Source: a virus. Taken from it: a stretch of DNA of 56,389 nucleotides. Positions 23,966 to 56,389 of this stretch are shown piece after piece. The position numbers and the translations under genes were made by a program. Location of the stretch: positions 1 through 56,389 of the IMG/VR virus record IMGVR_UViG_3300035183_000021; one strand, given 5' to 3'. Position 1 is the stretch's first letter. Every line of letters begins with the position of its first letter. The notes under the pieces were generated by a model, which was given only the letters and a program-made list of their open reading frames with translations, was not told the DNA's origin and did no database searches.

Positions 23966-26224
23966 ATGGATTTCGGGGATTTGCTTGCTGGTGCAGGAGT
24001 TGTCGGTCGAGCCTGGCGTGAAGAGGAAAATGCACAACGGCTTGCCCGCGAGCAAGAACTGCGGACTGCTGAGTTGAACCGATGGGAGCGTCTGAATCAA
24101 GTGGCGCTCAATAATACCACACCTGTGGAGGTACCACAGTTTCAGCTTGGCGCTTGGGTTGCTCCACCGGTGGCTGAAGTGCCTCCTGCGGCTCCCGCGA
24201 CTTCTGCGACTTCTGCGACTTCTGCGACTTCCACCGCTCCTGCTGCCCCTGCGGCTCCTGCTAAGACCGTTACTAGTGCTCGCTCCACTGTCTCTCCTGC
24301 TGCTCCCGCTGCTGCGCCTGTTGTCAAACCGCGCCCACTTGAGCAATTGAAAAACGTGCCTACTGAGCAGCTAACCACTGCGGAATGGCAATCACTTCCA
24401 CAAGCAGAAAAAGATCAGCGGTTGCAGATACTTAATAGGGAGCGTTTGGCCGCTATTGATCGTGCAGGACTACTTCAACTTCCTGCGGCTGCAATGGACT
24501 TCGTTGGTGGTCCTATTAACGCTCTTGCACATGGGTTAACTAAGTTAGGCAATGCAGTAAATTTCGCTAGAATTGGGCGGGCATTAGGTATTTATGGTCC
24601 TGAAGTGACTAGTGTTGAAGTACCTAAAGTAGGAACTGGTACTGCTACGCCGTATTTTGATACCTGGGTTCGTATACCTATACAAGAAAACCAGCCGCTA
24701 ACTGAAGCTCAATTACTTGAAAAACTAAAAGCCAACGACGCTGCCAAGAAGCAGGCGCAAAGCGAGGCTGCCAAGAAGCAGACGCAGAGTGCATCTGCTC
24801 TACAACTACCCGATCCTCAGCGTTTGCTCGCTGCTATGTCTCAAGTGGAGAGCGCGGGTAACCCTAATGCCGTCAGTGATAAGGGCGCAGTGGGGTTGAT
24901 GCAAGTGCTTGTTCCTACAGCTATGAAGCCTGGTTTTGGGCTGCCGAATGTGTTCGATTTCGCCGAGCAAATGGGCGTAAAAGTTGGGCAACGCAATGAA
25001 GATGAAGCCAAGCGTTTGTTGACCCGCAAGGATGTCGGGCCTGCGTATGGGCTGCTGTACATGAACGCCTTGTACCAGCGGTATAATGGCAATTTAGAGC
25101 ATGCTCTTGCTGCGTATAACGCAGGTTACACTACTGTTGATAAGTGGCTGCAAGCCGGTGCTGACCCTAACAAGCTCCCTAGCCGTGATTATGTCTCGAA
25201 GGTATTGGCTGCGTATGGCTCGCTGCCTGCTTCTAAGGGGGGTTCTACTACCTCTGCCGCCGCTACCTCTGCTGCTCCCGCTGCTCTTGCTGCGGTCGCT
25301 CCGACTGCTACCGCTCCCGCCGCTGCTGCTCCTACTGCGGCCACCCCCACTGCGGGGCTGACCATTCCTGGTATCTCCACAGCGCAGGCAGCTACGCTGC
25401 CAACTACGGCGGAGTCTCAGCGGCAGGAACCTCTTAGTCCTTCGCAGTTCTACCTTGCCAATCAGCAAGCCCTCTCTGTTGATATGCAGCGGGCAATGCA
25501 GCAACGTCAGGAACTTGCGCGGTTAGCAAGCATGTATCAGCAGGCGGGTCTAGGGCTTCAATATATGGCAGCTCGTGCTAAGCTGATGGAGTTTGATAAC
25601 AACTTGATTTATCTCCAAGGAATACAGGGACTACGGGAACTCACCCTTGCCAACGATCCTCGCCGTCTTGCCGCTGTGTTGTCGCAATACATGGGAACGC
25701 CGGTCGCTATTCAGCCTCGGACTGATGGCAAGTGGAATGTGCTTGTCAATGGGCAGAGCACTCGGACAGGGCTTACTACTCAAGAAGTTTCCGACCTGGC
25801 TCGTTCTACGTTTGACCAGGCTTACGTGCAGCAAAAAGCAGCGGCTTCGGCGGAGTACAACAAGAAGGCTTACGAGTCCATGCTCAAGATGCAGGAAGAA
25901 GCTGTTAAAGCTAACTTTGGAGCGCAAGCCGAGAACGCTAAACAGATGGCCCAGATGATCCGGGAGCTTGCGGTAGAACGCACGAAAGGAAATATGCAGC
26001 TTGCTACACAACTTGCTGTGGAGCAGCTTAAACAAAATGGTTGGAAGGTAACGGCTACTGGTGACGGTAGTGGTAACCTAGTTTTCGTGCCGCCACAAAA
26101 TTCTGGTATTCTCCCATTTGTGGTTGATTCAAGACAACTTCTGATGGGTAACCCAGCAGCTAAAAATTCACCAGTACCGCTAAGCCCATCGGTCTCTATC
26201 CCGATTCCTGCTCAAATGAGGTAA
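23966..26224 (+). CDS. Internal virion protein with lytic transglycosylase domain
   Basis: 752 residues. The SLT domain spans about 285-410: MSQVESAGNPNAVSDKGAVG (catalytic Glu295), LMQV, and LAAYNAGYTTVDKWL. It would cut peptidoglycan locally to let DNA enter. Ala/Thr/Ser/Pro-rich linkers flank it (about 75-125 and 425-475). The C-terminal third is helical. AAGGAG precedes the ATG. This matches T7 gp16-like activity carried here on a separate protein from the giant downstream. Confidence 0.85.
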   Translation: MDFGDLLAGAGVVGRAWREEENAQRLAREQELRTAELNRWERLNQVALNNTTPVEVPQFQLGAWVAPPVAEVPPAAPATSATSATSATSTAPAAPAAPAKTVTSARSTVSPAAPAAAPVVKPRPLEQLKNVPTEQLTTAEWQSLPQAEKDQRLQILNRERLAAIDRAGLLQLPAAAMDFVGGPINALAHGLTKLGNAVNFARIGRALGIYGPEVTSVEVPKVGTGTATPYFDTWVRIPIQENQPLTEAQLLEKLKANDAAKKQAQSEAAKKQTQSASALQLPDPQRLLAAMSQVESAGNPNAVSDKGAVGLMQVLVPTAMKPGFGLPNVFDFAEQMGVKVGQRNEDEAKRLLTRKDVGPAYGLLYMNALYQRYNGNLEHALAAYNAGYTTVDKWLQAGADPNKLPSRDYVSKVLAAYGSLPASKGGSTTSAAATSAAPAALAAVAPTATAPAAAAPTAATPTAGLTIPGISTAQAATLPTTAESQRQEPLSPSQFYLANQQALSVDMQRAMQQRQELARLASMYQQAGLGLQYMAARAKLMEFDNNLIYLQGIQGLRELTLANDPRRLAAVLSQYMGTPVAIQPRTDGKWNVLVNGQSTRTGLTTQEVSDLARSTFDQAYVQQKAAASAEYNKKAYESMLKMQEEAVKANFGAQAENAKQMAQMIRELAVERTKGNMQLATQLAVEQLKQNGWKVTATGDGSGNLVFVPPQNSGILPFVVDSRQLLMGNPAAKNSPVPLSPSVSIPIPAQMR

Positions 26225-26227
26225 TTC

Positions 26228-29200
26228 ATGGCCAAGGCAGGACTTTCCTTCGCTAACCCTTTCATGGAAAAGATGAATGTGGGGGAGATGCCGAACCCCT
26301 ATGATTCATTTACTCCACTCACTCCTCCCGCGAATATCGGCCTAGGGAACCTAGGTCCTTCTCTTGCTGACATGGCGGCACTAGGGGAGGCGCTTACCAA
26401 GCAAAGCCAGTTCACTATGCCGGAGATGCGCCAGCCGACTGTTACTCCTAGTCCGGCTATTGCATACAGCCCGTCTCGCAATGAACTGTTTGTTCAAGGT
26501 GTTACATTCCCCGTTGATGATGCAGCAACGGCTCTAAAAACCGAAAGCCTACTGAACAACCCAAGCACTGGAATTCCAGCAGGGGGCGACTGGCAGCCAT
26601 TAGATGTAAACGCATATCGGCAGTGGCTAGGAACTATCCGCAATCCAAGTCTTGGAAACTTATTTGCTAAAAACTTCGGGCGTGGTGTTGATGAGCTACA
26701 GATGCTTGGTGGCCGCTTCCTCCAGTGGTTGGGAGCTGAAAACTTAGGCAGCCGCATTGTCAAGGCGCAAGAAGAAGACCTCGCCCGCACTGCGCCGTTT
26801 GATCGTCGGTTTGCCGATATTAACTCTGGTCGTGATGCTGTTGAGTGGTTCGTAGCCAACCTCGCCCAACAAGGACCTAACCTGCTTGAATCAATCGCCA
26901 CAGCTCTCGGTTCGTTTGCTATCGGTACGGCTGCGGGTGGTCCACTTGTAGGGGCAGGTGCCGCGTTGGCGGGGCTTGCAGGAAAGTCCGCGTTCAAGCA
27001 AGCCGTTACCGCTGCGGCGCGGAAATACGCGGCTGGCGAAACGCTCAACGCCGCCGAATATAAATTACTCCGTGAAGCTGCTGGGCTAGCAGGCGTAGCC
27101 GCTGGAATGACGGCGCATAACGTCGGTATAGGTATTGCCGATACCTATGGTGAATTACGAGAGCAAGGAGCCAGCGCTGACGATAATACCGCCCGTTTGA
27201 AGGCTCTCGCTTGGTCTATGCCCTACGGCGCGTTAGAACTCCTACCTGAGTTCGCACTGGCTGCACGTGTATTTGGTAATGTGCTAGCTCGCTCCGCGCT
27301 CCCTGCTGGTACCTCCCTCTTACGCCGTGGCGCTGAAATGGCGCGTCGTGCTGGTGTCGGGCTTACTGTGGGTGGTGCTGCTGAAGGTACTGTAGAACTA
27401 GGACAAGAAGCTATTCTGCTGAAGGCTTCGGACCAGGATTTCTCGTCACCCGAGAACATCAATCGTTTGGTTGAATCGTTTGCTGCGGGCTTCGGTGTGG
27501 GTGGCCCCATTGGTGCTGCTGCTCACTTGCGCAGTAACCATCCTACGAACTTGCTAAATCCTGCTCAATCGCCTGAGCCGCCTACTGGTCGTAATTTGAT
27601 CGTACCCCCAGGGAATAGCCCGACTCCGAGCGCAGGTCCTAGTACTGCGGTACAGCCGTACTATACCCCTGCGACCTCAATAGAGGTAATGCCTTCCCCT
27701 CCTGAACAACTGACTGGTCCTCTTACTGCCCCGCAGCTTCCGGCCCCTGTTTCGCCGGTGGAACCGATGGGCGGCCCACAGATTATGGTAACGCCAGAAG
27801 GCGTAGCTTATCCCGATCAAATGCTGCGCCAGCACGGCAACGTCCCTCCCAGCGCACCTGGTACCCAAGGTGTGCTCAACATCTTCGGTGGGCAGATTTC
27901 TGCGCAAGAACTAGCTTCGCGGATGCAACCAACTGTTTTTGAGAATCAATCTCCAACGTTAACTCAGACAGTGGTAACTGATCCGCGTCAAGGAGCGCTT
28001 CAGTTTTCGGAACCTGTATCTACTGAGCAATTCAACACTCAGCAAACGCAAATACAACAGCAGGTTCCCATTCAGCAACAACTTGACGTACTTGCACAGC
28101 AACAAGCGCTTGCGCCCCAGGAACAAGAAATAGACAGCGCTTCGATGCCGATGCGCCAAGTGGGGCCAACGCAGCCTGTGCAATTACCTCTATTCTCGCG
28201 CCGCCAGGCTCCTCGTCCGAGCCGTGCAGAAGGGTTGCGTCGTGGTATTGGTACGAGGCTGGTAGAACCCACTATCGAAACCCCGCAAACAGTGGTTTCG
28301 TCTCCTACGCAGCTTCCGCTGTTCACCCAAGAAGGTGAACCGTCTCTCCCCGCGCTTCGTGCTGCGGGGGTAAAAACCAAACTGCCGCCTACACCGCTTG
28401 CGCAACCGAGTACCAAACAACGTTCCAAGCGGGGGCTCAAAAAGCAGGCTGGTGTCGCTGAAGTCAATATTGTTCCGCAGGAGGTCCCCTATGCCATTCA
28501 AGAGCAAAGCCCAACGCCGATTCCTGCACGCCAAGTACCCGAAACTGGCAATGGAGTGGGAGCGGAAATACCCACCGAGCAAAAACCTGCCAGAAAGGGT
28601 GAGGCCCTCAAAACAAAAGCCAAAGAGCGGCAAGTAGCGCCCGAAGCTCCGCCTGCGGCGGTAGTGCTGAAGAAAGGTCAACCGACTGAGACGAAGCAAG
28701 CTGCGCCTGCGGCAGAAGCACTGAAGAAAGGTCAACCGACTGAGACGAAGCAAGCTGCGCCTGCGGCAGAAACACTGAGGAAAGGACGGCGTACTAGCAC
28801 AAAGCAGACTACGCCTAAGGCTGAGCCTTTGAAAAAAGGCCAATCCGCCACCATGACGAGGGAAGAGCAGCTTGCTGAGGCTGGCCGACAGTGGGAAGAG
28901 TACGCAGACCCCGACACTCAGCCGAAGTGGGCCGAACTCACCAATGAACAAAAAGAGCAGTGGCGGAAAATTGTTGTTGACGAGCGTAAGCCTACCATTG
29001 CTGCGGCTGAGGAAATCGCCCCGCCGAAGAAACCGGAAGCAGTAAGAACTACTGCACAGGCTGAACAGACTGCGGAAACGGTTTCTCCCAAAGAGGAATC
29101 TGAACCCACACCAGCCAAGATACTAGAGGATGAGATCGCCGCCGCAGAGGAAGCTACGGACATTCGCACGTTTAAGGATGCCATTCAGACTGTCATCCAC

Positions 29201-32200
29201 TACGCTTTCTTTGCTGGCGAAGACACCAATGTCAAGAAGTTGGCGGACAGGGCTCGTGCCTTCCTTAACAATACGCAGTTCTCCGATACGCAGCAAGCTG
29301 CGATGGATGAGGCATTCCTGGAGGCGGCGAACTATGAGACGCAGCTTGAGGCTGTGTACAAGGGCGGTTCTCGTAAAGGGCAGATGAAGCCTTGGTTCTC
29401 CTATGCTGTGTCTCGTGGGCTACTGCCTAGCATCAAGGCGCGCATTATCAATCTGCCTTCAGAATACAAGACGCAGATGGAAGCGAAGTCTGTGGCAAGC
29501 GAACAGGCTCCGACCAAATCTACTGAATCTAGCATTGAAAAAATAACGGAAACGCCTGAAGCATTATTGGGTGAACTGATCAACGACCTCATTACTCGTG
29601 TTCGTGAGTACGACAGCCTAAAGAAAAAAGTTGCTTTTCGTGGCAAAACTTATACCAACCTAGTGGCGCTTGCCAAAGAACTCTACGCTAAGACAAGCGA
29701 ACAAGGAAAGAACTACATCGTCCGTGGTCATAAGCTACGTGAGTACTTCAAAGCTGACGGCTCTCCGAAACTGCTCAAGTCCGACGAGCGGTATATCATC
29801 ACTACCCAAGAGCTAACTACTGAGCAACAGCGCGCGTTGGAGCGAGAACAGAAAGCTGAAGCAAAAGCGATAGCGGCAGAATATTTGATCGCTGAACGTG
29901 AACGCGCGCGTCTTGAACAGGAAGGATTTAAGGTCGAAGACGCTTGGGATGATCCCGACGGTATGTTCTATCGGGATAATGGGACTGAGATCAAATCTAC
30001 GATCCCCCCCGGTCGGGTGCGTTTGTTGGTCAAGAGCTTCCTAAACAAGCTACGTATCAAGCCTAACGTATACATCTACGCCAACGTCGCTGATCTCAAA
30101 CGCCGCAACCCTGACTTGTATCGCCGTGCCGCTACTGCCCGCAAAGAGGGGGACTTCGACACAACCAACGCAGTGGGCTATTCGTTCGGTCCCAACGTAA
30201 TCATCTTCACGGATTTCGTTCGTACCGAGCAGCAGCTCAAGTTCGTCCTGGCACATGAAACGTTAGGGCACTTCGGCTTTAGAAGCATCGTATCCAAGAA
30301 AGACCTAGACGCGGTGCTTAATCGCATCTACAACGCTGATCCAGATATACAGGCGGCAGTGGACGCGATGGTCACCAATCGCGGCATGTCCAAACTGGAA
30401 GCAATTGAAGAATATCTGGCCGACAATGCCGCTGACCTGGATACGTCCATCATTGCCCGTATCTGGAATGTAGTGAAGAACTTCCTCAACAAGCTAGGGT
30501 TCACGTTCCAGGACGACGAGGCTCGCTACTTTATCAATCTGGCGCGCAAGTACGTGCGCCGGGGCGATGTGGGGCACTTCGTCAATGCTCGGTCCATCGT
30601 TGGCGATCTCGAAGCACTCAGACAAGATCAGATCGCCGGTCGCTATGCTCGGGTCTCCGCTGGAGATATGGGGTCGCGGCTATTCGCCGCCGGGGCGCTC
30701 AACCGTCGCTTTAGGAATACGGGCGGCCTCTATGGCGCGATGGAAGCCTTCGCTAAGGGGGTGTTCGGTGCTCGTCATGATGTGCCCGGCGTTGTTGCGC
30801 GCCTCCTTGAACAGGTCCAAACGCTGGATCACAAGGCTCGTCGTAGCTACGGTCTGAACCAAATCTACCGTCTTCTCGAAAAACAACAACATTTTGCTCG
30901 GGCGCTGCTGTCCAAATACCAGCGAATGACCGCTTTCACCCACTCGGTTGACCTGGGCTTCCTGAAGAAAGGCGTGACCGAGGCTGAGAAAGAACGCGCT
31001 GGTGAACTGCTAGCTCGTGCTGCGTTACTCCGTTCCGCGCAGGCTACTGATGAACTGATCAAGTCCTTTGGTCCACTAGTCACTGTGGACGACATGGGTA
31101 ATGTGATTGTTGACCCAGCCGTCCGCGCAGCTATTGAGCGTGCTGGTTTCGTCACTGCCGAGGAATTCCGCAAGGGCTTCGATATTACTTACTCAGACGG
31201 TAGCACGGTCCACTTCCAATACGACGTGGATGAAAACAGCCCTGAGTGGAAGGTTTATCTCGAAATACGCAATGCCGTAAACGAAGCCGCCATCGACCTG
31301 ATGCTATCTAACTACGAAGCCGCACAGGCCGAAACTAAGCGCGTGCTCAATGACCTGAACGCTAAGCGCCGTGGTACCAACGTCTTTACGGCTGAAGACC
31401 TTGCCGCTATCCGCAAGGTTGCTGCGATGTACCAGGCCAAGCGCTATGCAGGCAGTAGCGTGGCGAATGCTGGTGTGGAAATTAAGAGACAGGCTGAGAA
31501 AGACTCCGAGGAATTCCTGATTGCCTTTGGTCGTGCCTTGTTTAACGACGATGTGTTTGCAGCATGGATGAAAGACCCCAATGCCAAGCCCGCCATCGTC
31601 AAGGACATGGAGGAATTTCTCAAAGCTGAATACGACGACATCCGCGCTCAACTCCCGAGCCTGCGGGCCAAGGTCAAGAGCGAAGAGCAGTCGTTCCAGA
31701 TACAGAAAGCTATCCGCGACATATTCCTGTTTGATCTTCAGTCCAAGAACGCTGACTACTACGCCAAACGCACAATCCTTGGTTCCTACGTGCCGTTCTC
31801 TCGCCGTGGGTTTGAGCAGGTAAAACTGGTAGCGGTCGATGCTCGCGGAAATCCGGTAGCGTTGGACCCCAATATTCGCTCCGCGTTGCCCTACTTCCAG
31901 TTCAACTCTCGCCGCGAGGCTATGGCTGTTGCGGAAGAATTGGACAAGATATTTGGTGGTGACAACGAGTTCGTTCTGCTAGATGAAAACGGTAGCGAGG
32001 TTACTGTTCGTCTGAAAGCTGAAGTATCGCGTACCCGCCAGTCGCCTGACCTGAGCGAGGCTGTGAACTTCAACGAGTTCGTGTATGTGCTCAATCGTTT
32101 GAATGTGAATCTCTCGCCAGAAGCGCGGGAGCGAATCATCACTACTCTGACAGCTCAGAACGCCCGTGCTCGCCACAATTTGCAGCGCTCCGGTACCGAA

Positions 32201-34198
32201 GGGTGGGACAAAGATGTCGTGCGTTCCGTGTCTGAGTATCTGGAAACTACGGCCCATGTCGCTGCCAAGAAGCTGTTCCGTCACCGTCTTGACGATATTC
32301 TGTTGAACGACAGCTATTGGTTGGGGGACGACCAAAAACTGGCTGATTTGAAGGCTGCCGTCGAAAATGCCCAGACGGATGGGGAACGCGCCCGCGCCCA
32401 GCGTGCGTATGATGAATACGCCTATATGTATCGCTACATGAAAGGCGCGGCTGGGGAAAACACTGTTGTAATCGACGGTAAGGAAGTACCTACTCTCGGT
32501 CGTGGTGAAGACTACCGGGAAGAAGCCAAGCAAGTGCTCCGCTGGTATAGCGAGACGACCAACATCGCTGACTCGACCGAAGACCTTTTGTCGGGTGAAG
32601 TCGGTTCCAGACTCAAGCTCTTGACAGTGTTGATGCAATTGGGTGGTTCAGTCGCCACAGCCGTGGTTAACCTCTCGTCGTTAGTTACCCATGCACTTCC
32701 CTATCTGGCGTACTACAACCCGACTCGTGGATTCGGTGGGGGCTATGGTGAAGCCAAAGCCGCAGCCGCTTTGTGGAAAGCGGCTAAGGATGTGAAGAAT
32801 TTCAAACTGGCTGACCCCGCGTTCCTCGAACAAATACTACGTAACGGCACTTACGAGCGTTATGGGTTAACTGAAGACGAGGCTCAGTTCCTACTCGCCC
32901 AGACCGAAGAAGGTACCCTGCAAGCGGCTCAGTTCAACGCCCTGGTGGGCACCGCGCGTGGTAAGGTGTTCAACAACAAAGCGCAGGCTGCCGTTCAGGC
33001 GTGGATGTCCATGTTCTCCTACACCGAGCAGTTCAACCGCCGTGTTACGGCACTGGCTGCATATCGGTTAGAGAAGGACCGTCTCCGTGCGCAGGGTGTG
33101 ACAGACGAACAGCAACTTATTGACGCAGCTACCGAAGCCGCGCGCGTGGCCGTAAACACCTCGCAGGGTGAATACGCCATGTACAACCGCCCAGAGATGG
33201 CGCGCGGTAATGTGTTGCAATACGTCTTCATGTACAAGCAGTTCGTCATAATCACGGTGCAGTTGCTGCGGTCACTACCGCCTAAAGGCCAATTGCTCAT
33301 GCTGGGCTTTCTACTGTTGACTTCGGGATTGCGCGGACTGCCCTTCGCCGAAGACATCTTCGACATCGTAGATACCATCGCCCAGAAGCTGGGCCTGAAG
33401 ATGGCAAGCGTGGAGAAGGAGATCACCGAATGGCTAGACGCCGTTGCCCCTGGAATGACACCGTATGTGATGCGCGGCCTGCTTGACCGGGTGACTAGCG
33501 CTACGATTTCCACCCGGATGGGTATGGGCGATTTGGTGCCGCTAACAGGGGCGTTCAAAGCAGGTGCCGATCCGGCGAAAGAAATGGCCAACTTCGCGGG
33601 TCCAGTATTCGGGGGTATCTCTGGGCTGATCGGTATGGCGGGTAGCCTTGCTAGGTATGGCGCTGAAGCGATTGGCCTCCGAGACGACGTAACCTCGTTT
33701 AGCAGCATCATGCGCAATTCGCCTATTGCGGCTGTGCAGGCTATTGCCGACGGGCTTGCGTATCTCGACAGTGGGATGATTACCAACAACCGTGGACAGG
33801 TCATCTCCCGCGAAGCTCCGTATCATGTCATTCTTGCCCGGATGTTGGGCTTCTACCCTGCCATTGCTACAGAGCAGAACGACATCGTGCGCCTCTCCAA
33901 AGACGTAGCGAACTACGCTAAGGCGATTAAAGCAGAATTCGTTTCTGCATACGTGCAAGCCTCGCTCAATGGGGATAATGAACGTATGCAGAAAATCATC
34001 GCCGCCGTCGATCAATGGAATCGAGACGCCGAAGGCACTGGTCTGGAAATCAGCACATTCGTGCGGTCAGCTAACCGGGCCGCGTTGGAAGCGTCCCGTC
34101 CTACGGCGTTGCGGTATCTTAAAGCTGCACCGAAGCACGTGCGTCCCGAGACAGAGGAGCTACTCCGAATCCACGGGCTCGCAGACGAGATCAATTAA
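26228..34198 (+). CDS. Giant internal virion (polyvalent-type) protein
   Basis: 2656 residues, the largest gene. Residues about 205-300 hold Gly/Ala hydrophobic segments. Residues 430-990 are low-complexity Pro/Gln/Lys-rich, with an 18-residue repeat. Residues 1343-1348 read HETLGH in LAHETLGHFGFRS, resembling zincin-like metallopeptidase domains of phage polyvalent proteins, with acidic EAIEEYLADNAAD downstream. A hydrophobic segment near 2355-2375 precedes the C-terminal region. GAGG precedes the ATG. It is probably packaged and ejected with DNA. Its stop overlaps the convergent primase stop. A separate gene is nested at 28491-28637. Confidence 0.75.
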   Translation: MAKAGLSFANPFMEKMNVGEMPNPYDSFTPLTPPANIGLGNLGPSLADMAALGEALTKQSQFTMPEMRQPTVTPSPAIAYSPSRNELFVQGVTFPVDDAATALKTESLLNNPSTGIPAGGDWQPLDVNAYRQWLGTIRNPSLGNLFAKNFGRGVDELQMLGGRFLQWLGAENLGSRIVKAQEEDLARTAPFDRRFADINSGRDAVEWFVANLAQQGPNLLESIATALGSFAIGTAAGGPLVGAGAALAGLAGKSAFKQAVTAAARKYAAGETLNAAEYKLLREAAGLAGVAAGMTAHNVGIGIADTYGELREQGASADDNTARLKALAWSMPYGALELLPEFALAARVFGNVLARSALPAGTSLLRRGAEMARRAGVGLTVGGAAEGTVELGQEAILLKASDQDFSSPENINRLVESFAAGFGVGGPIGAAAHLRSNHPTNLLNPAQSPEPPTGRNLIVPPGNSPTPSAGPSTAVQPYYTPATSIEVMPSPPEQLTGPLTAPQLPAPVSPVEPMGGPQIMVTPEGVAYPDQMLRQHGNVPPSAPGTQGVLNIFGGQISAQELASRMQPTVFENQSPTLTQTVVTDPRQGALQFSEPVSTEQFNTQQTQIQQQVPIQQQLDVLAQQQALAPQEQEIDSASMPMRQVGPTQPVQLPLFSRRQAPRPSRAEGLRRGIGTRLVEPTIETPQTVVSSPTQLPLFTQEGEPSLPALRAAGVKTKLPPTPLAQPSTKQRSKRGLKKQAGVAEVNIVPQEVPYAIQEQSPTPIPARQVPETGNGVGAEIPTEQKPARKGEALKTKAKERQVAPEAPPAAVVLKKGQPTETKQAAPAAEALKKGQPTETKQAAPAAETLRKGRRTSTKQTTPKAEPLKKGQSATMTREEQLAEAGRQWEEYADPDTQPKWAELTNEQKEQWRKIVVDERKPTIAAAEEIAPPKKPEAVRTTAQAEQTAETVSPKEESEPTPAKILEDEIAAAEEATDIRTFKDAIQTVIHYAFFAGEDTNVKKLADRARAFLNNTQFSDTQQAAMDEAFLEAANYETQLEAVYKGGSRKGQMKPWFSYAVSRGLLPSIKARIINLPSEYKTQMEAKSVASEQAPTKSTESSIEKITETPEALLGELINDLITRVREYDSLKKKVAFRGKTYTNLVALAKELYAKTSEQGKNYIVRGHKLREYFKADGSPKLLKSDERYIITTQELTTEQQRALEREQKAEAKAIAAEYLIAERERARLEQEGFKVEDAWDDPDGMFYRDNGTEIKSTIPPGRVRLLVKSFLNKLRIKPNVYIYANVADLKRRNPDLYRRAATARKEGDFDTTNAVGYSFGPNVIIFTDFVRTEQQLKFVLAHETLGHFGFRSIVSKKDLDAVLNRIYNADPDIQAAVDAMVTNRGMSKLEAIEEYLADNAADLDTSIIARIWNVVKNFLNKLGFTFQDDEARYFINLARKYVRRGDVGHFVNARSIVGDLEALRQDQIAGRYARVSAGDMGSRLFAAGALNRRFRNTGGLYGAMEAFAKGVFGARHDVPGVVARLLEQVQTLDHKARRSYGLNQIYRLLEKQQHFARALLSKYQRMTAFTHSVDLGFLKKGVTEAEKERAGELLARAALLRSAQATDELIKSFGPLVTVDDMGNVIVDPAVRAAIERAGFVTAEEFRKGFDITYSDGSTVHFQYDVDENSPEWKVYLEIRNAVNEAAIDLMLSNYEAAQAETKRVLNDLNAKRRGTNVFTAEDLAAIRKVAAMYQAKRYAGSSVANAGVEIKRQAEKDSEEFLIAFGRALFNDDVFAAWMKDPNAKPAIVKDMEEFLKAEYDDIRAQLPSLRAKVKSEEQSFQIQKAIRDIFLFDLQSKNADYYAKRTILGSYVPFSRRGFEQVKLVAVDARGNPVALDPNIRSALPYFQFNSRREAMAVAEELDKIFGGDNEFVLLDENGSEVTVRLKAEVSRTRQSPDLSEAVNFNEFVYVLNRLNVNLSPEARERIITTLTAQNARARHNLQRSGTEGWDKDVVRSVSEYLETTAHVAAKKLFRHRLDDILLNDSYWLGDDQKLADLKAAVENAQTDGERARAQRAYDEYAYMYRYMKGAAGENTVVIDGKEVPTLGRGEDYREEAKQVLRWYSETTNIADSTEDLLSGEVGSRLKLLTVLMQLGGSVATAVVNLSSLVTHALPYLAYYNPTRGFGGGYGEAKAAAALWKAAKDVKNFKLADPAFLEQILRNGTYERYGLTEDEAQFLLAQTEEGTLQAAQFNALVGTARGKVFNNKAQAAVQAWMSMFSYTEQFNRRVTALAAYRLEKDRLRAQGVTDEQQLIDAATEAARVAVNTSQGEYAMYNRPEMARGNVLQYVFMYKQFVIITVQLLRSLPPKGQLLMLGFLLLTSGLRGLPFAEDIFDIVDTIAQKLGLKMASVEKEITEWLDAVAPGMTPYVMRGLLDRVTSATISTRMGMGDLVPLTGAFKAGADPAKEMANFAGPVFGGISGLIGMAGSLARYGAEAIGLRDDVTSFSSIMRNSPIAAVQAIADGLAYLDSGMITNNRGQVISREAPYHVILARMLGFYPAIATEQNDIVRLSKDVANYAKAIKAEFVSAYVQASLNGDNERMQKIIAAVDQWNRDAEGTGLEISTFVRSANRAALEASRPTALRYLKAAPKHVRPETEELLRIHGLADEIN
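28491..28637 (+). CDS. Small phage protein nested in another frame of the giant gene
   Basis: 48 residues in the +1 frame relative to the giant ORF. A strong AGGAGG (28479-28484) lies 6 bases before the ATG. The sequence begins MPFKSKAQRRFLHAKYPKLA and contains KNLPERV, the signature of a small basic protein I have seen as a stand-alone gene in many phages. The host frame here is low-complexity Pro/Gln/Lys, suggesting the giant ORF tolerates or grew around this gene. Role unknown. Confidence 0.75.
   Translation: MPFKSKAQRRFLHAKYPKLAMEWERKYPPSKNLPERVRPSKQKPKSGK
28667..28828 (+). repeat. 54-bp direct repeats inside the giant gene
   Basis: Two nearly identical 54-bp units (28667-28720, 28721-28774) and a diverged third encode 18-residue repeats (LKKGQPTETKQAAPAAEA type). 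They form a flexible basic linker and mark recent slippage. Confidence 0.85.
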
Positions 34199-37026
34199 AC
34201 CGCCTTCAACTGCCCATAGGCAAGGTTATCCAGAGCTTCGTCTGCGTCAGACAGTATCCCCTGCAAGCGCGGGTGGTTGAGGTTCAGACCAAGCACATAA
34301 GACTGACCGAGTTTGATTGGGGTATCCTTCGCCAGATAAGCCTTGTTTGATTTAGGCGTAGCGATGATACCCTCGCTAGCAAACTCATTGACGAATGTCT
34401 TATAGTCCGCGCCGCGCATCGCCAGCCAGCGCCGAAGGTGGGTACGGTCCAGCATGACAGTACCGTGCGTAATCGGATCAGCACTGGATTTGCGGTAGAA
34501 ATCGAAGCGCACCCGAACTTCTCCACGAGGTATGCGATTGTAGTCCATCGTGGGTTTCTGCGTGCCCGTGTGGAATATCTGCACCTGCATATCAGCAGTC
34601 TCGTTAAGGTATTCGGTCAATAGATCGAACGCATCCAGCTTGAACTCAGCCACGGTGCGACGGATCGCGCCTATTTGCGCCAGCACCCATTCAATACCCG
34701 GCTTGTGGTCATAGGCGATCAAACCCCATTCCCGTGCCAGTTTGCCAGCCAAATCTGCGAGGATGATAGCCTGTTCCCAATATCGTTCTTCACCCGAGAA
34801 GTGCGCCCTATATTCCCTGTGGAAGGTCTCAGTAGCTTGGGCAATGGTCGCACGGATACCGGTTTCACCTAACTCCAATAGCTTGGCGATGAAAGCTCGC
34901 CCGGCGAATCCGTAGTTACTGGTGATGAACTCGTAAATCTTACGTCCAGCAGTACTATCACGAGTGAAGATTGGACTAGGCGGAACAGAAACTTCAAGAA
35001 TCCGGGCCATCTGGGCGTCGGTATCCAGCCCACTCGCAATTAGCTTGGAGTTCAGAGATTTGTTGGTAGATACAATAACTGGCATCGCCCATGTCTTAGC
35101 GTCTCGCTCTTCGGCATTGCGGTTCAGCCGTGCTTTGTCTCTGCCTTGGCTCACCCAATAAGCGAAGTCACCCACTTCCTTGTCGTCCATCATGGTCACT
35201 TCGTCGATAGTCATGGGCATGTGGCAATATAACCCCATGCGGCTAAACAGCGTGTTCTGCGTGAACTTTGCCGCGAAGTGCAGCTTTTCTGGGTTGCCGT
35301 AAATGGACTGTATCCACATCTGCGCAAGCGTCTTCCCGCCGCCAGTGGGGCCGTAGAGCGAGACTATTAGTCCCTTCAGGCCGGTGAACGCATATAGTGG
35401 TGCAGAGAACCCAACTGTCAGTGCGAACATGTGGGCACGAAGATCGGCCTTTTCGAGCAGGGAAGTGAATTTCACCCAGGCATCAAGAGACCCTGCTGTA
35501 GTCCAGAGCTCGTTACCCAACCGTGCTGAGTTAGCAGCAAGGTTTATTGATTCTTCACTGGCAGTTCCATCAATATTGCGGCGCAGGATCGCATCACCAA
35601 TGACGAACTGTGAGAAGTTCTCCTTCCACCCCATCGTGGCGTACAGATTCGTCATGGCGCGTCTCTGCCGCAACTCTTCCATGTACGCGCGCAACATAGC
35701 TTGAAAATACCCCGTCTGTGTACGATTACTAAGTAGAATCCCTTGGTCGGCAATTACTATCGGGAAATCCCGATTCCCTTCAGCAAGAGTAGCTTGCCGC
35801 ATGACAAGTTCCTGCCAGCCGACATGTGGTCGATTCCAACAAAAGCGCACCGTCTCATACCCCAAACTTTCGTCTTTACCATACGACACAGGGTAGATGT
35901 CGAACTTGCACACATCAATGTCCGTTTCGTCGATGGTTATTTTGATACCATCGGTGGTGCGCTTGAATGGCTTCGGTAGGGGGATGCTTGTATCTACGGC
36001 TGGAGGAACACTTGAAGCAGGCGCAACTTCTAGATATTGCACTCCTAGCCGCGCTGGAGTACCCACTTTGTCTTTGAACTTGCAACCCCTACACCCGCCT
36101 GGGCGGAGTTCTTCAAATTTCCTACAGGTTGTTGGGCCTGTCGTCGCCTGTTTCCATTGTGCCAATTTGCGTAGCGTCTCATTGGCGTTGTGTCTAGGAT
36201 ACTGTTCCGACCATGCAATAGCGGTTGCCTCCGGGTCTTGACAATACGCCGCCACACCAAGCAGCGCATACCAGAAAGGTTCTTCTACTTCGCTCTGATT
36301 CTTCACGCCCCAATCAATCTGTTGGCACTTGGTAGCGACGACAACCGGGTTAGCTGGGGGGAAATCATGCTGCACCCGCAACGCTTGTGCCAGCCCACTG
36401 CTGGGCCGTTCCACGGGTTGGGTTGATATATACGCCGATAGGCTCGCCACCATCTGTTCGACAGGTATAGGCGGCGCGTCAATGAGCAGCTTTACCTTGG
36501 TACCACTTTTAGGATTGGTGGTACCCACAGGGCGCAGTACTCGGGCACTGTCCGCAGGAACAGCCGGGTCGATCTCGAATCCTTTGTCCTTGGCTGCTGC
36601 TTTCATCGCCTCAGCCAGCGGCTTCCATCGGGGTGGCTCCAGTTCTTCAGCCAACACCCAATAGACATGCAGCCCGTTGCCGGAGTGGACTACCATCGGC
36701 TTGGGTAGCCCCATCTGTTGAACGAACTTGCCTAGGGCCTGTAGCCCCTCTTTCCATGTAGGGAAGGGTTTGTTGTCCCCACAATCTACATCTAACGCAA
36801 TGACTTTCGTAGCACGAACGTTTTCCTGTTTCCGGCTTCCTTTTTCAATAAATGCTGAAATAGCGAAATAGGTGTTGTTGCCACGCTGGTCTAATGCGAC
36901 TATCGCTTTTGCGAGTTCTTCTACCGTAGCAAAGAATCCCTGTCGCCTACCGTCCGGGTTAATGACTGTGGTGACATAGAAACCTGTTGATGGTAGAACC
37001 CGCTGAAGGAAATTCAACGTGTCCAT
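34195..37026 (-). CDS. Primase-helicase (AEP-type primase fused to SF3/DUF927-like helicase)
   Basis: 943 residues. The N-terminal primase region has ALDVDCGD (Asp79, Asp81), HSGNGLHVYW (about 114-123) and DSARVLRPVGTTNPKSG, the pattern of archaeo-eukaryotic primase-like (RepB/prim-pol) enzymes. The C-terminal ATPase has Walker A GPTGGGKT (559-566) and Walker B MTIDEV. It would prime and unwind DNA at the phage fork. It is the last gene of the leftward unit; its stop overlaps the giant gene's stop. AGGGG precedes the ATG. Confidence 0.82.
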   Translation of the reverse strand: MDTLNFLQRVLPSTGFYVTTVINPDGRRQGFFATVEELAKAIVALDQRGNNTYFAISAFIEKGSRKQENVRATKVIALDVDCGDNKPFPTWKEGLQALGKFVQQMGLPKPMVVHSGNGLHVYWVLAEELEPPRWKPLAEAMKAAAKDKGFEIDPAVPADSARVLRPVGTTNPKSGTKVKLLIDAPPIPVEQMVASLSAYISTQPVERPSSGLAQALRVQHDFPPANPVVVATKCQQIDWGVKNQSEVEEPFWYALLGVAAYCQDPEATAIAWSEQYPRHNANETLRKLAQWKQATTGPTTCRKFEELRPGGCRGCKFKDKVGTPARLGVQYLEVAPASSVPPAVDTSIPLPKPFKRTTDGIKITIDETDIDVCKFDIYPVSYGKDESLGYETVRFCWNRPHVGWQELVMRQATLAEGNRDFPIVIADQGILLSNRTQTGYFQAMLRAYMEELRQRRAMTNLYATMGWKENFSQFVIGDAILRRNIDGTASEESINLAANSARLGNELWTTAGSLDAWVKFTSLLEKADLRAHMFALTVGFSAPLYAFTGLKGLIVSLYGPTGGGKTLAQMWIQSIYGNPEKLHFAAKFTQNTLFSRMGLYCHMPMTIDEVTMMDDKEVGDFAYWVSQGRDKARLNRNAEERDAKTWAMPVIVSTNKSLNSKLIASGLDTDAQMARILEVSVPPSPIFTRDSTAGRKIYEFITSNYGFAGRAFIAKLLELGETGIRATIAQATETFHREYRAHFSGEERYWEQAIILADLAGKLAREWGLIAYDHKPGIEWVLAQIGAIRRTVAEFKLDAFDLLTEYLNETADMQVQIFHTGTQKPTMDYNRIPRGEVRVRFDFYRKSSADPITHGTVMLDRTHLRRWLAMRGADYKTFVNEFASEGIIATPKSNKAYLAKDTPIKLGQSYVLGLNLNHPRLQGILSDADEALDNLAYGQLKAV

Positions 37027-56239: not shown

Positions 56240-56389
56240 CCATCCCCACTTCGCAGCCACCTGCGCTCCGTCACTTCGTCACTTCGTCACTTCGTCACTT
56301 CGTCACTTCGTCACTTCGTCACTTCGTCACTTCGTCACTTCGTCACTTCGTCACTTCGTCACTTCGTCACTTCGTCACTTCGTCACTTC
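56240..56389. repeat. Right copy of terminal direct repeat, with 8-bp tandem array
   Basis: Bases 56240-56269 are identical to 1-30. Fifteen copies of GTCACTTC (56270-56389) run off the window end, against twelve in the left copy. Confidence 0.9.

Follow-up and report, generated by a model that had tools for sequence, protein, structure and literature searches.

Phage genes embedded in other genes are already known, above all Rz1 within Rz of phage lambda. Across phages, spanin genes occur in embedded, overlapped and separated arrangements, and in a survey of 528 two-component spanins no family mixed the embedded arrangement with the others (PMC6139136). Overprinting and disorder in overlapping genes, as described for phiX174 and other small viruses, have been reviewed elsewhere (PMC8227390). 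Nested phage genes are usually treated as rare overprinting. In contrast, the nested gene described here presents itself as the conserved partner in a slot of a giant gene. It is carried by an IMG/VR virus contig (record IMGVR_UViG_3300035183_000021), which is 56,389 nucleotides long and is called the window below. We consider it very likely that this is a real small late gene in a dual-coding slot with interchangeable occupants, its translation being inferred.

The host is a giant virion-type gene of the plus strand (26228..34198), whose product of 2656 residues matches phrog_11358, phrog_21376 and F116-like structural/PLxRFG proteins in its C-terminal part. The adjoining upstream gene (23966..26224, plus strand) encodes 752 residues with a transglycosylase SLT domain (PF01464, 5.4e-17). 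A conserved metallopeptidase-like domain containing HETLGHF (HExxH) is encoded at 29978..30487 of the plus strand. This domain served as bait for fetching relatives of the giant gene and as basis of the host tree; its enzymatic reading is inferred from the HExxH motif only. A minus-strand gene with a DUF927 domain (34195-37026, E 2e-28) overlaps the end of the giant gene tail to tail by 4 bases. Since the same 8-base tandem array CGTCACTT is found at both window ends (30-134 and 56269-56389), the contig is likely complete and cut inside this array (terminal redundancy or circular permutation).

At residue 755 of the giant protein, the +1 frame of the 2656-codon gene contains an ORF of 48 codons followed by TAG (28491..28637, plus strand). 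Its translation, MPFKSKAQRRFLHAKYPKLAMEWERKYPPSKNLPERVRPSKQKPKSGK, begins with MPFKSKAQRRF. The Shine-Dalgarno sequence AGGAGG (28479..28484, plus strand) is separated from the ATG by a 6-base spacer. No other out-of-frame ORF of at least 25 residues in the whole giant gene is preceded by a Shine-Dalgarno sequence matching at 5 or more bases. The product is strongly basic, with a charge of about +12 from a count of K/R versus D/E, and is basic from residue 4 onward. There is no cysteine among its 48 residues and therefore no lipobox. Homologues, kept nesting and substitutions that track the nested frame make it very likely that the gene is real, although its translation is inferred from sequence. 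It could be objected that the ORF is open by chance, because the +1 frame of a GC-rich gene often is, and that its likeness to other proteins reflects coincidence or low complexity. Indeed, the giant gene contains 14 other +1-frame ORFs of at least 38 residues. Because its +1 frame is so rich in ORFs, an open frame by itself is little evidence, and ORF length alone was dropped as an argument for the nested gene.

The small protein belongs to a family that we call family A. A scan of IMG/VR with the 48 residues yielded at least 349 relatives, and the best tblastn match shows 60% identity over all 48 residues (E 4e-15). Nearly all relatives start with MPFKS or a close variant. In the family alignments A1 and A3 the residues M1, P2, K4, S5, Q8 and P17 are invariant, and L33 and P34 are conserved at >=90%. 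The window product meets this signature (N-terminal MPFKS-x-x-Q, P17, LP near residue 33, basic tail) as well as the family criterion of an own start with initiation signal, here the ATG with AGGAGG at 6 bases. Stand-alone family A genes are present in many viral contigs and in annotated phages, for instance as gene 48 of Streptomyces phage Vorvolakos and in phage 023Pt_psg01; the annotation of these stand-alone members does not go beyond hypothetical protein. A further 31 loci were found on contigs of bacterial or archaeal genomes, mostly MAGs; some of them are nested in giant or ~410-residue frames, others are of a longer type (MPFKSKAQRRKFAQLLVEGKISDQTFEEWN...).

PHROG and Pfam families provided no function name for family A. 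Its relatives match phrog_1375 weakly (E 1.5e-5 to 0.006), the window protein without significance (0.33), and a Pfam search with the small proteins gave no match above its cut-offs. PDB sequence matches to A3 and A4 were confined to short stretches of designed or repeat proteins and similar, and were judged to be due to chance. In three loci (L064, L065, L067) the family A motif forms the N-terminus of proteins of 192-198 residues; therefore, it can be a domain of larger proteins.

In many of the first 80 family A loci, a long host ORF, either a giant gene of >1100 codons or a gene of ~400 codons, contains the small gene in its +1 frame. Relatives of the giant gene were fetched by its own sequence and by the conserved domain (alignment A2); the 210 residues that follow the nest retrieved no relatives, the patterns derived from them being too specific. 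Nests were detected by comparing the small-family profiles with all out-of-frame ORFs upstream of the conserved domain. A nest is present in 55 of the 66 giant-gene relatives with assessable linker, of which 42 carry family A and 13 an unrelated small gene, family C. All recognised nests are in the +1 frame. Included in the 55 are L308, L309, L318 and L319, whose scoring as empty giants was dropped after a diverged family A had been found in them. No nest is recognisable in the other 11; hence, the nested gene is not indispensable at this slot. IMG/VR loci are partly redundant, and all counts refer to loci, not to independent events. In L336 the nested family A frame (host residue 866) is cut after 20 codons with the host ORF intact, which may represent decay or a sequencing error; its sister L335 has a nest of 44 residues.

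The slot is held by a poorly conserved linker of residues ~721-960 (28388..29107, plus strand). Conservation per 40 residues is 0.09-0.25 in this linker, whereas the C-terminal part reaches 0.4-0.7, and the host frame over the nest falls within the region of lowest conservation. Directly after the nest, the linker contains a 54-base in-frame tandem repeat (LKKGQPTETKQAAPAAEA...; 28644..28816, plus strand), which falls within the segment absent from the empty-site relative L093/L323. In two relatives the giant gene is split shortly past the linker, with 3-4 kb of other genes between the halves (L104, 5708-9695; L095, 10708-13826); the linker is therefore a joint that tolerates breaks.

An earlier note, made from the sequence alone, had described an ORF with AGGAGG in the +1 frame of a 2656-codon gene, and this held, with the coordinates 28491-28637 confirmed. 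Its statement that similar proteins occur as stand-alone genes in many phages held as well, as seen from the viral contigs, Vorvolakos gene 48 and 023Pt_psg01. The host frame, which it had described as low complexity, is at the nest part of the most weakly conserved region of the giant protein. Of the two outcomes that it had named as refutations, the lack of homologues is itself refuted by the at least 349 relatives, and a disruption of the nested frame in relatives was not borne out, since ORF, frame and Shine-Dalgarno sequence are kept, also where the giant genes are only distantly related.

Two statistics taken across relatives address the objection of a chance ORF directly. Of 45 nested starts, 33 have a suitably spaced Shine-Dalgarno sequence of at least 5 bases in front of them, versus 81 of 4610 (1.8%) other +1 ATG/GTG codons from the same host regions, which is an enrichment of ~40-fold. 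In 21 disjoint pairs, changes at host codon positions 1, 2 and 3 number 338, 191 and 164 in the nest versus 13332, 10589 and 22656 in the flanks. The share at host position 3 is 24% in the nest versus 49% in the flanks, and the excess changes of the nest are at host position 1, corresponding to the third codon position of the small gene. This shift is seen in both families A and C. Changes concentrated at position 3 of the small frame imply selection on the small protein; the binomial p-value on these counts assumes independence of single changes. When the window is compared with L094, host position 3 changes at a rate of 0.18 per codon in the nest, versus 0.62-0.65 in the flanks, and between L284 and L298 conservation is 100% for the nested protein versus 51% for the host. 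Together with the identity over all 48 residues and the nest and frame kept in relatives, the start-signal enrichment and the reversal of the codon phase all but exclude a chance ORF.

The same counts bear on the possibility that a DNA or RNA element, such as a recombination site or a structure, is the conserved unit rather than a protein. The clean cassette boundaries described below would fit such an element. However, 338 of the 693 changes in the nest fall at position 3 of the small frame, and nested and stand-alone members share conserved amino acids, so that we regard this explanation as very unlikely and a protein-coding gene as the conserved unit.

The host frame is open in nested copies and rarely so in stand-alone copies. 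For family C it is open in 14/14 nested and 0/66 stand-alone copies, for family A in 87/87 and 17/43, respectively. Nested copies are open by definition, and the informative part is the rarity of an open frame in the stand-alone copies. The GC contents of the two family C sets are 0.60 and 0.49, and this difference in base composition could possibly explain part of the family C contrast.

Family C, the occupant of 13 slots (MPLKKGSSNKVVSANVKKIM..., beginning MPLKKGSS), matches phrog_2423 (E 2e-8) and is mostly stand-alone elsewhere. A distant homology of families A and C was considered and is unsupported, as they have nothing in common beyond MP-x-K. Good matches to both families were not found in any of the records searched; one weak C-like match (E 8e-4) occurs in the record of L094. 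Further C-like matches, in giants first scored as empty, belong to a different stand-alone type, which we take to be DUF6496-like, and do not represent a nest. Runs of other small basic proteins (MAKTPAWQRKEGKNPSGGLNAKGR... and ...RKQAIAIALS.AG...) are present elsewhere in the genomes of the giant-gene phages L345 and L346.

A direct view of the exchange is provided by L288 (A) and L289 (C), whose hosts are nearly identical. Their DNA agrees through the Shine-Dalgarno sequence and the start codon and diverges across the small gene; agreement resumes immediately behind the stop codon. The same start boundary is found between L269 (A) and L271 (C), with a less clean far side. Both pairs are close neighbours on the host-domain tree, where L269 (A), L270-272 (C) and L275 (empty) are placed within one tight clade. 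Besides L275, an empty slot is seen in L323, the contig of L093; it is clean, with AAGGAGG left in place, and the best segment of L093/L323 is 71% identical to the window's host. On this tree, A and C must have replaced each other at least 10 times, and at least 18 changes of state are needed if empty slots are counted, rows of unknown state being left out of these minimum counts. Host residues at the slot are wholly different between A and C occupants.

Alternatively, there may have been little exchange, with A, C and the empty state being old lineages sorted by descent, loss and gain. In favour of this view, carriers of A cluster more strongly on the host tree than they do after shuffling of the labels. 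Against it stand the different occupants in the near-identical hosts of L288 and L289, with boundaries at start and stop, the mixed clade of L269, L270-272 and L275, and the at least 18 changes of state. A chimeric assembly is conceivable and not excluded for a single pair, but the swap-pair contigs come from different metagenomes, and an assembly artefact is therefore unlikely. Consequently, repeated exchange is preferred and sorting of old lineages appears unlikely.

The boundaries also bear on a programmed frameshift, by which the N-terminal part of the giant protein would be fused to the small frame. The constant +1 relation of both frames would be in line with such a mechanism. However, the product begins exactly at ATG or GTG with MPFKS or MPLKKG, as in the stand-alone genes, the Shine-Dalgarno sequence is at initiation distance and the swaps begin at the start codon. 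A frameshift product would lack an initiation site of its own and be continuous with the upstream host frame; the nested gene does not meet this criterion. Frameshifting is thus very unlikely, and the nested ORF is best regarded as a gene with its own start.

Family A is found in a second nested setting, in the +1 frame near residues 15-55 of a gene of ~400 codons. Homologues of this gene lie between the portal gene and a structural (major-head-type) gene, and the name scaffold used for it is inferred from this position. By a first pattern, 53 of 78 scaffold-like loci carry the nest, with MPFQ variants being additional. These nests have no Shine-Dalgarno sequence, only A-rich leaders, possibly because their hosts do not use it. 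A third type of nested +1 ORF (MPYGKKSKMTKKVMKKKS..., MPYGKK...), of ~25-27 residues, was observed in the 5' part of the scaffold-like gene of L156, L157, L163, L175 and L180, at the site where relatives carry family A.

A family A match is also contained in 68 cultured Flavobacterium elemo records, with a structural protein annotated over it. In the one record read in detail, the nest is at residue 1220 of the gene for a structural protein of 3694 residues and the scaffold-like gene is located elsewhere. In L008, L016, L021, L024 and L059, a large gene is followed at a distance of 2-9 bases from its stop by a stand-alone copy, and in the first four of these the large gene matches the elemo giant. 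In L050 family A stands between a portal-type (head-tail adaptor) gene and a head assembly gene, and some copies adjoin terminase genes.

These settings argue against classical overprinting, by which the small protein would have been born de novo in the giant gene and later have escaped to stand-alone sites. Nested forms are common, and overprinting is the usual origin of viral overlaps (PMC8227390). However, family A stands alone in Streptomyces phages, in a head module, beside terminase genes and on bacterial contigs, and it is nested in a second, unrelated gene as well. Moreover, the same slot holds the unrelated, mainly stand-alone family C, and the host residues there differ completely between A and C occupants. 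The product of a de novo gene should be restricted to the lineage of its host gene, a criterion that family A does not meet. Hence, an origin within the giant gene is unlikely. The suggestion of the earlier note that the small gene may be older than its host frame is supported by its wide stand-alone distribution. Its expectation that standard annotation would miss such a gene held, since the 68 Flavobacterium records annotate only the host structural protein there. The slot with alternative occupants and the second nesting site in scaffold-like genes go beyond that note. As the family is nested in two structural genes, a conserved gene is probably missing from the annotation of many phage genomes.

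Our reading as a small gene in a dual-coding slot rests on features that the sequences themselves show: the gene is nested in a conserved frame, its starts are enriched in Shine-Dalgarno sequences, selection follows its codon phase, swaps are clean, some slots are empty, and the host frame is open over nested copies but seldom over stand-alone ones. Translation would start by internal initiation at the nested gene's own Shine-Dalgarno sequence on the giant-gene mRNA; other ribosomes would read the same bases in the host frame, giving the poorly conserved, low-complexity linker. Between its conserved flanks, the slot would take up family A, the unrelated family C or nothing, always in +1, and the occupants would be exchanged as cassettes reaching from start to stop, with homologous recombination between the flanks as the presumed route. 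Of the two partners, the small gene would be the constrained one, and the host residues over the nest would mainly need an open frame.

A bolder reading, which we consider likely, is that of a dual-coding docking slot, where unrelated small genes are exchanged from start to stop in a fixed frame with the host kept open, and that the same small gene has docked likewise in a second structural gene, the scaffold-like one. If this holds, nested genes are more than accidents of overprinting and constitute a layer of modules that phage genomes can exchange. Since the product is small, basic and encoded beside giant virion-type, scaffold-like or terminase genes, it may act late, on DNA or in the head. 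This role is no more than a possibility, as only genomic context and charge speak for it: the protein could be a basic accessory, associated with DNA or the head, that assists virion assembly or genome delivery and is expressed along with the giant protein or the scaffold. The nested position may reflect such joint expression with the host gene, a saving in genome length, or an old event by which an insertion or gene fusion came to cover the small gene.

Sister phages that combine near-identical hosts with A, C or an empty slot amount to swap experiments performed by nature. It is evident from them that ~50-60 linker residues of a virion-type protein can be replaced wholesale, and they offer a direct route to the function of the small protein and to the question of A/C equivalence. 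In the open-licence literature searched, we found no paper on this nest or on the swapping of unrelated nested genes at one site, and an exact-motif search of the same literature gave no relevant-looking paper. The nested gene of the present case gives way to a non-homologous one, start and stop marking the borders of the exchange, and it is present in two different structural genes.

The two PHROGs families concerned, phrog_2423 (matched by family C) and phrog_1375 (weakly matched by relatives in family A, without significance by the window protein), are both without annotated function. The F116-like structural/PLxRFG proteins are homologous to the C-terminal 500 residues of the giant protein; this homology starts near residue 2124, far from the linker. 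The embedded spanins Rz/Rz1 of lambda resemble the present case in that a small phage gene lies wholly inside a larger one and is often missed by gene callers. Rz1, however, is a lipoprotein that acts with the product of its host gene in lysis, whereas the nested product is short and very basic, with no lipoprotein signal visible (no cysteine; judged from the residues alone). Unlike the surveyed spanin families, family A mixes nested and stand-alone arrangements; its hosts are giant virion-type or scaffold-like genes, and unrelated occupants swap at one site. As in the overlaps of phiX174 and other small viruses, a single piece of DNA specifies two proteins, one or both of which are often disordered. 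In those viruses, whose genomes are often small, it is usually the nested frame that arose later. In the present dsDNA phage contig of 56 kb, the nested gene looks established and it is the linker of the giant protein that overlies it.
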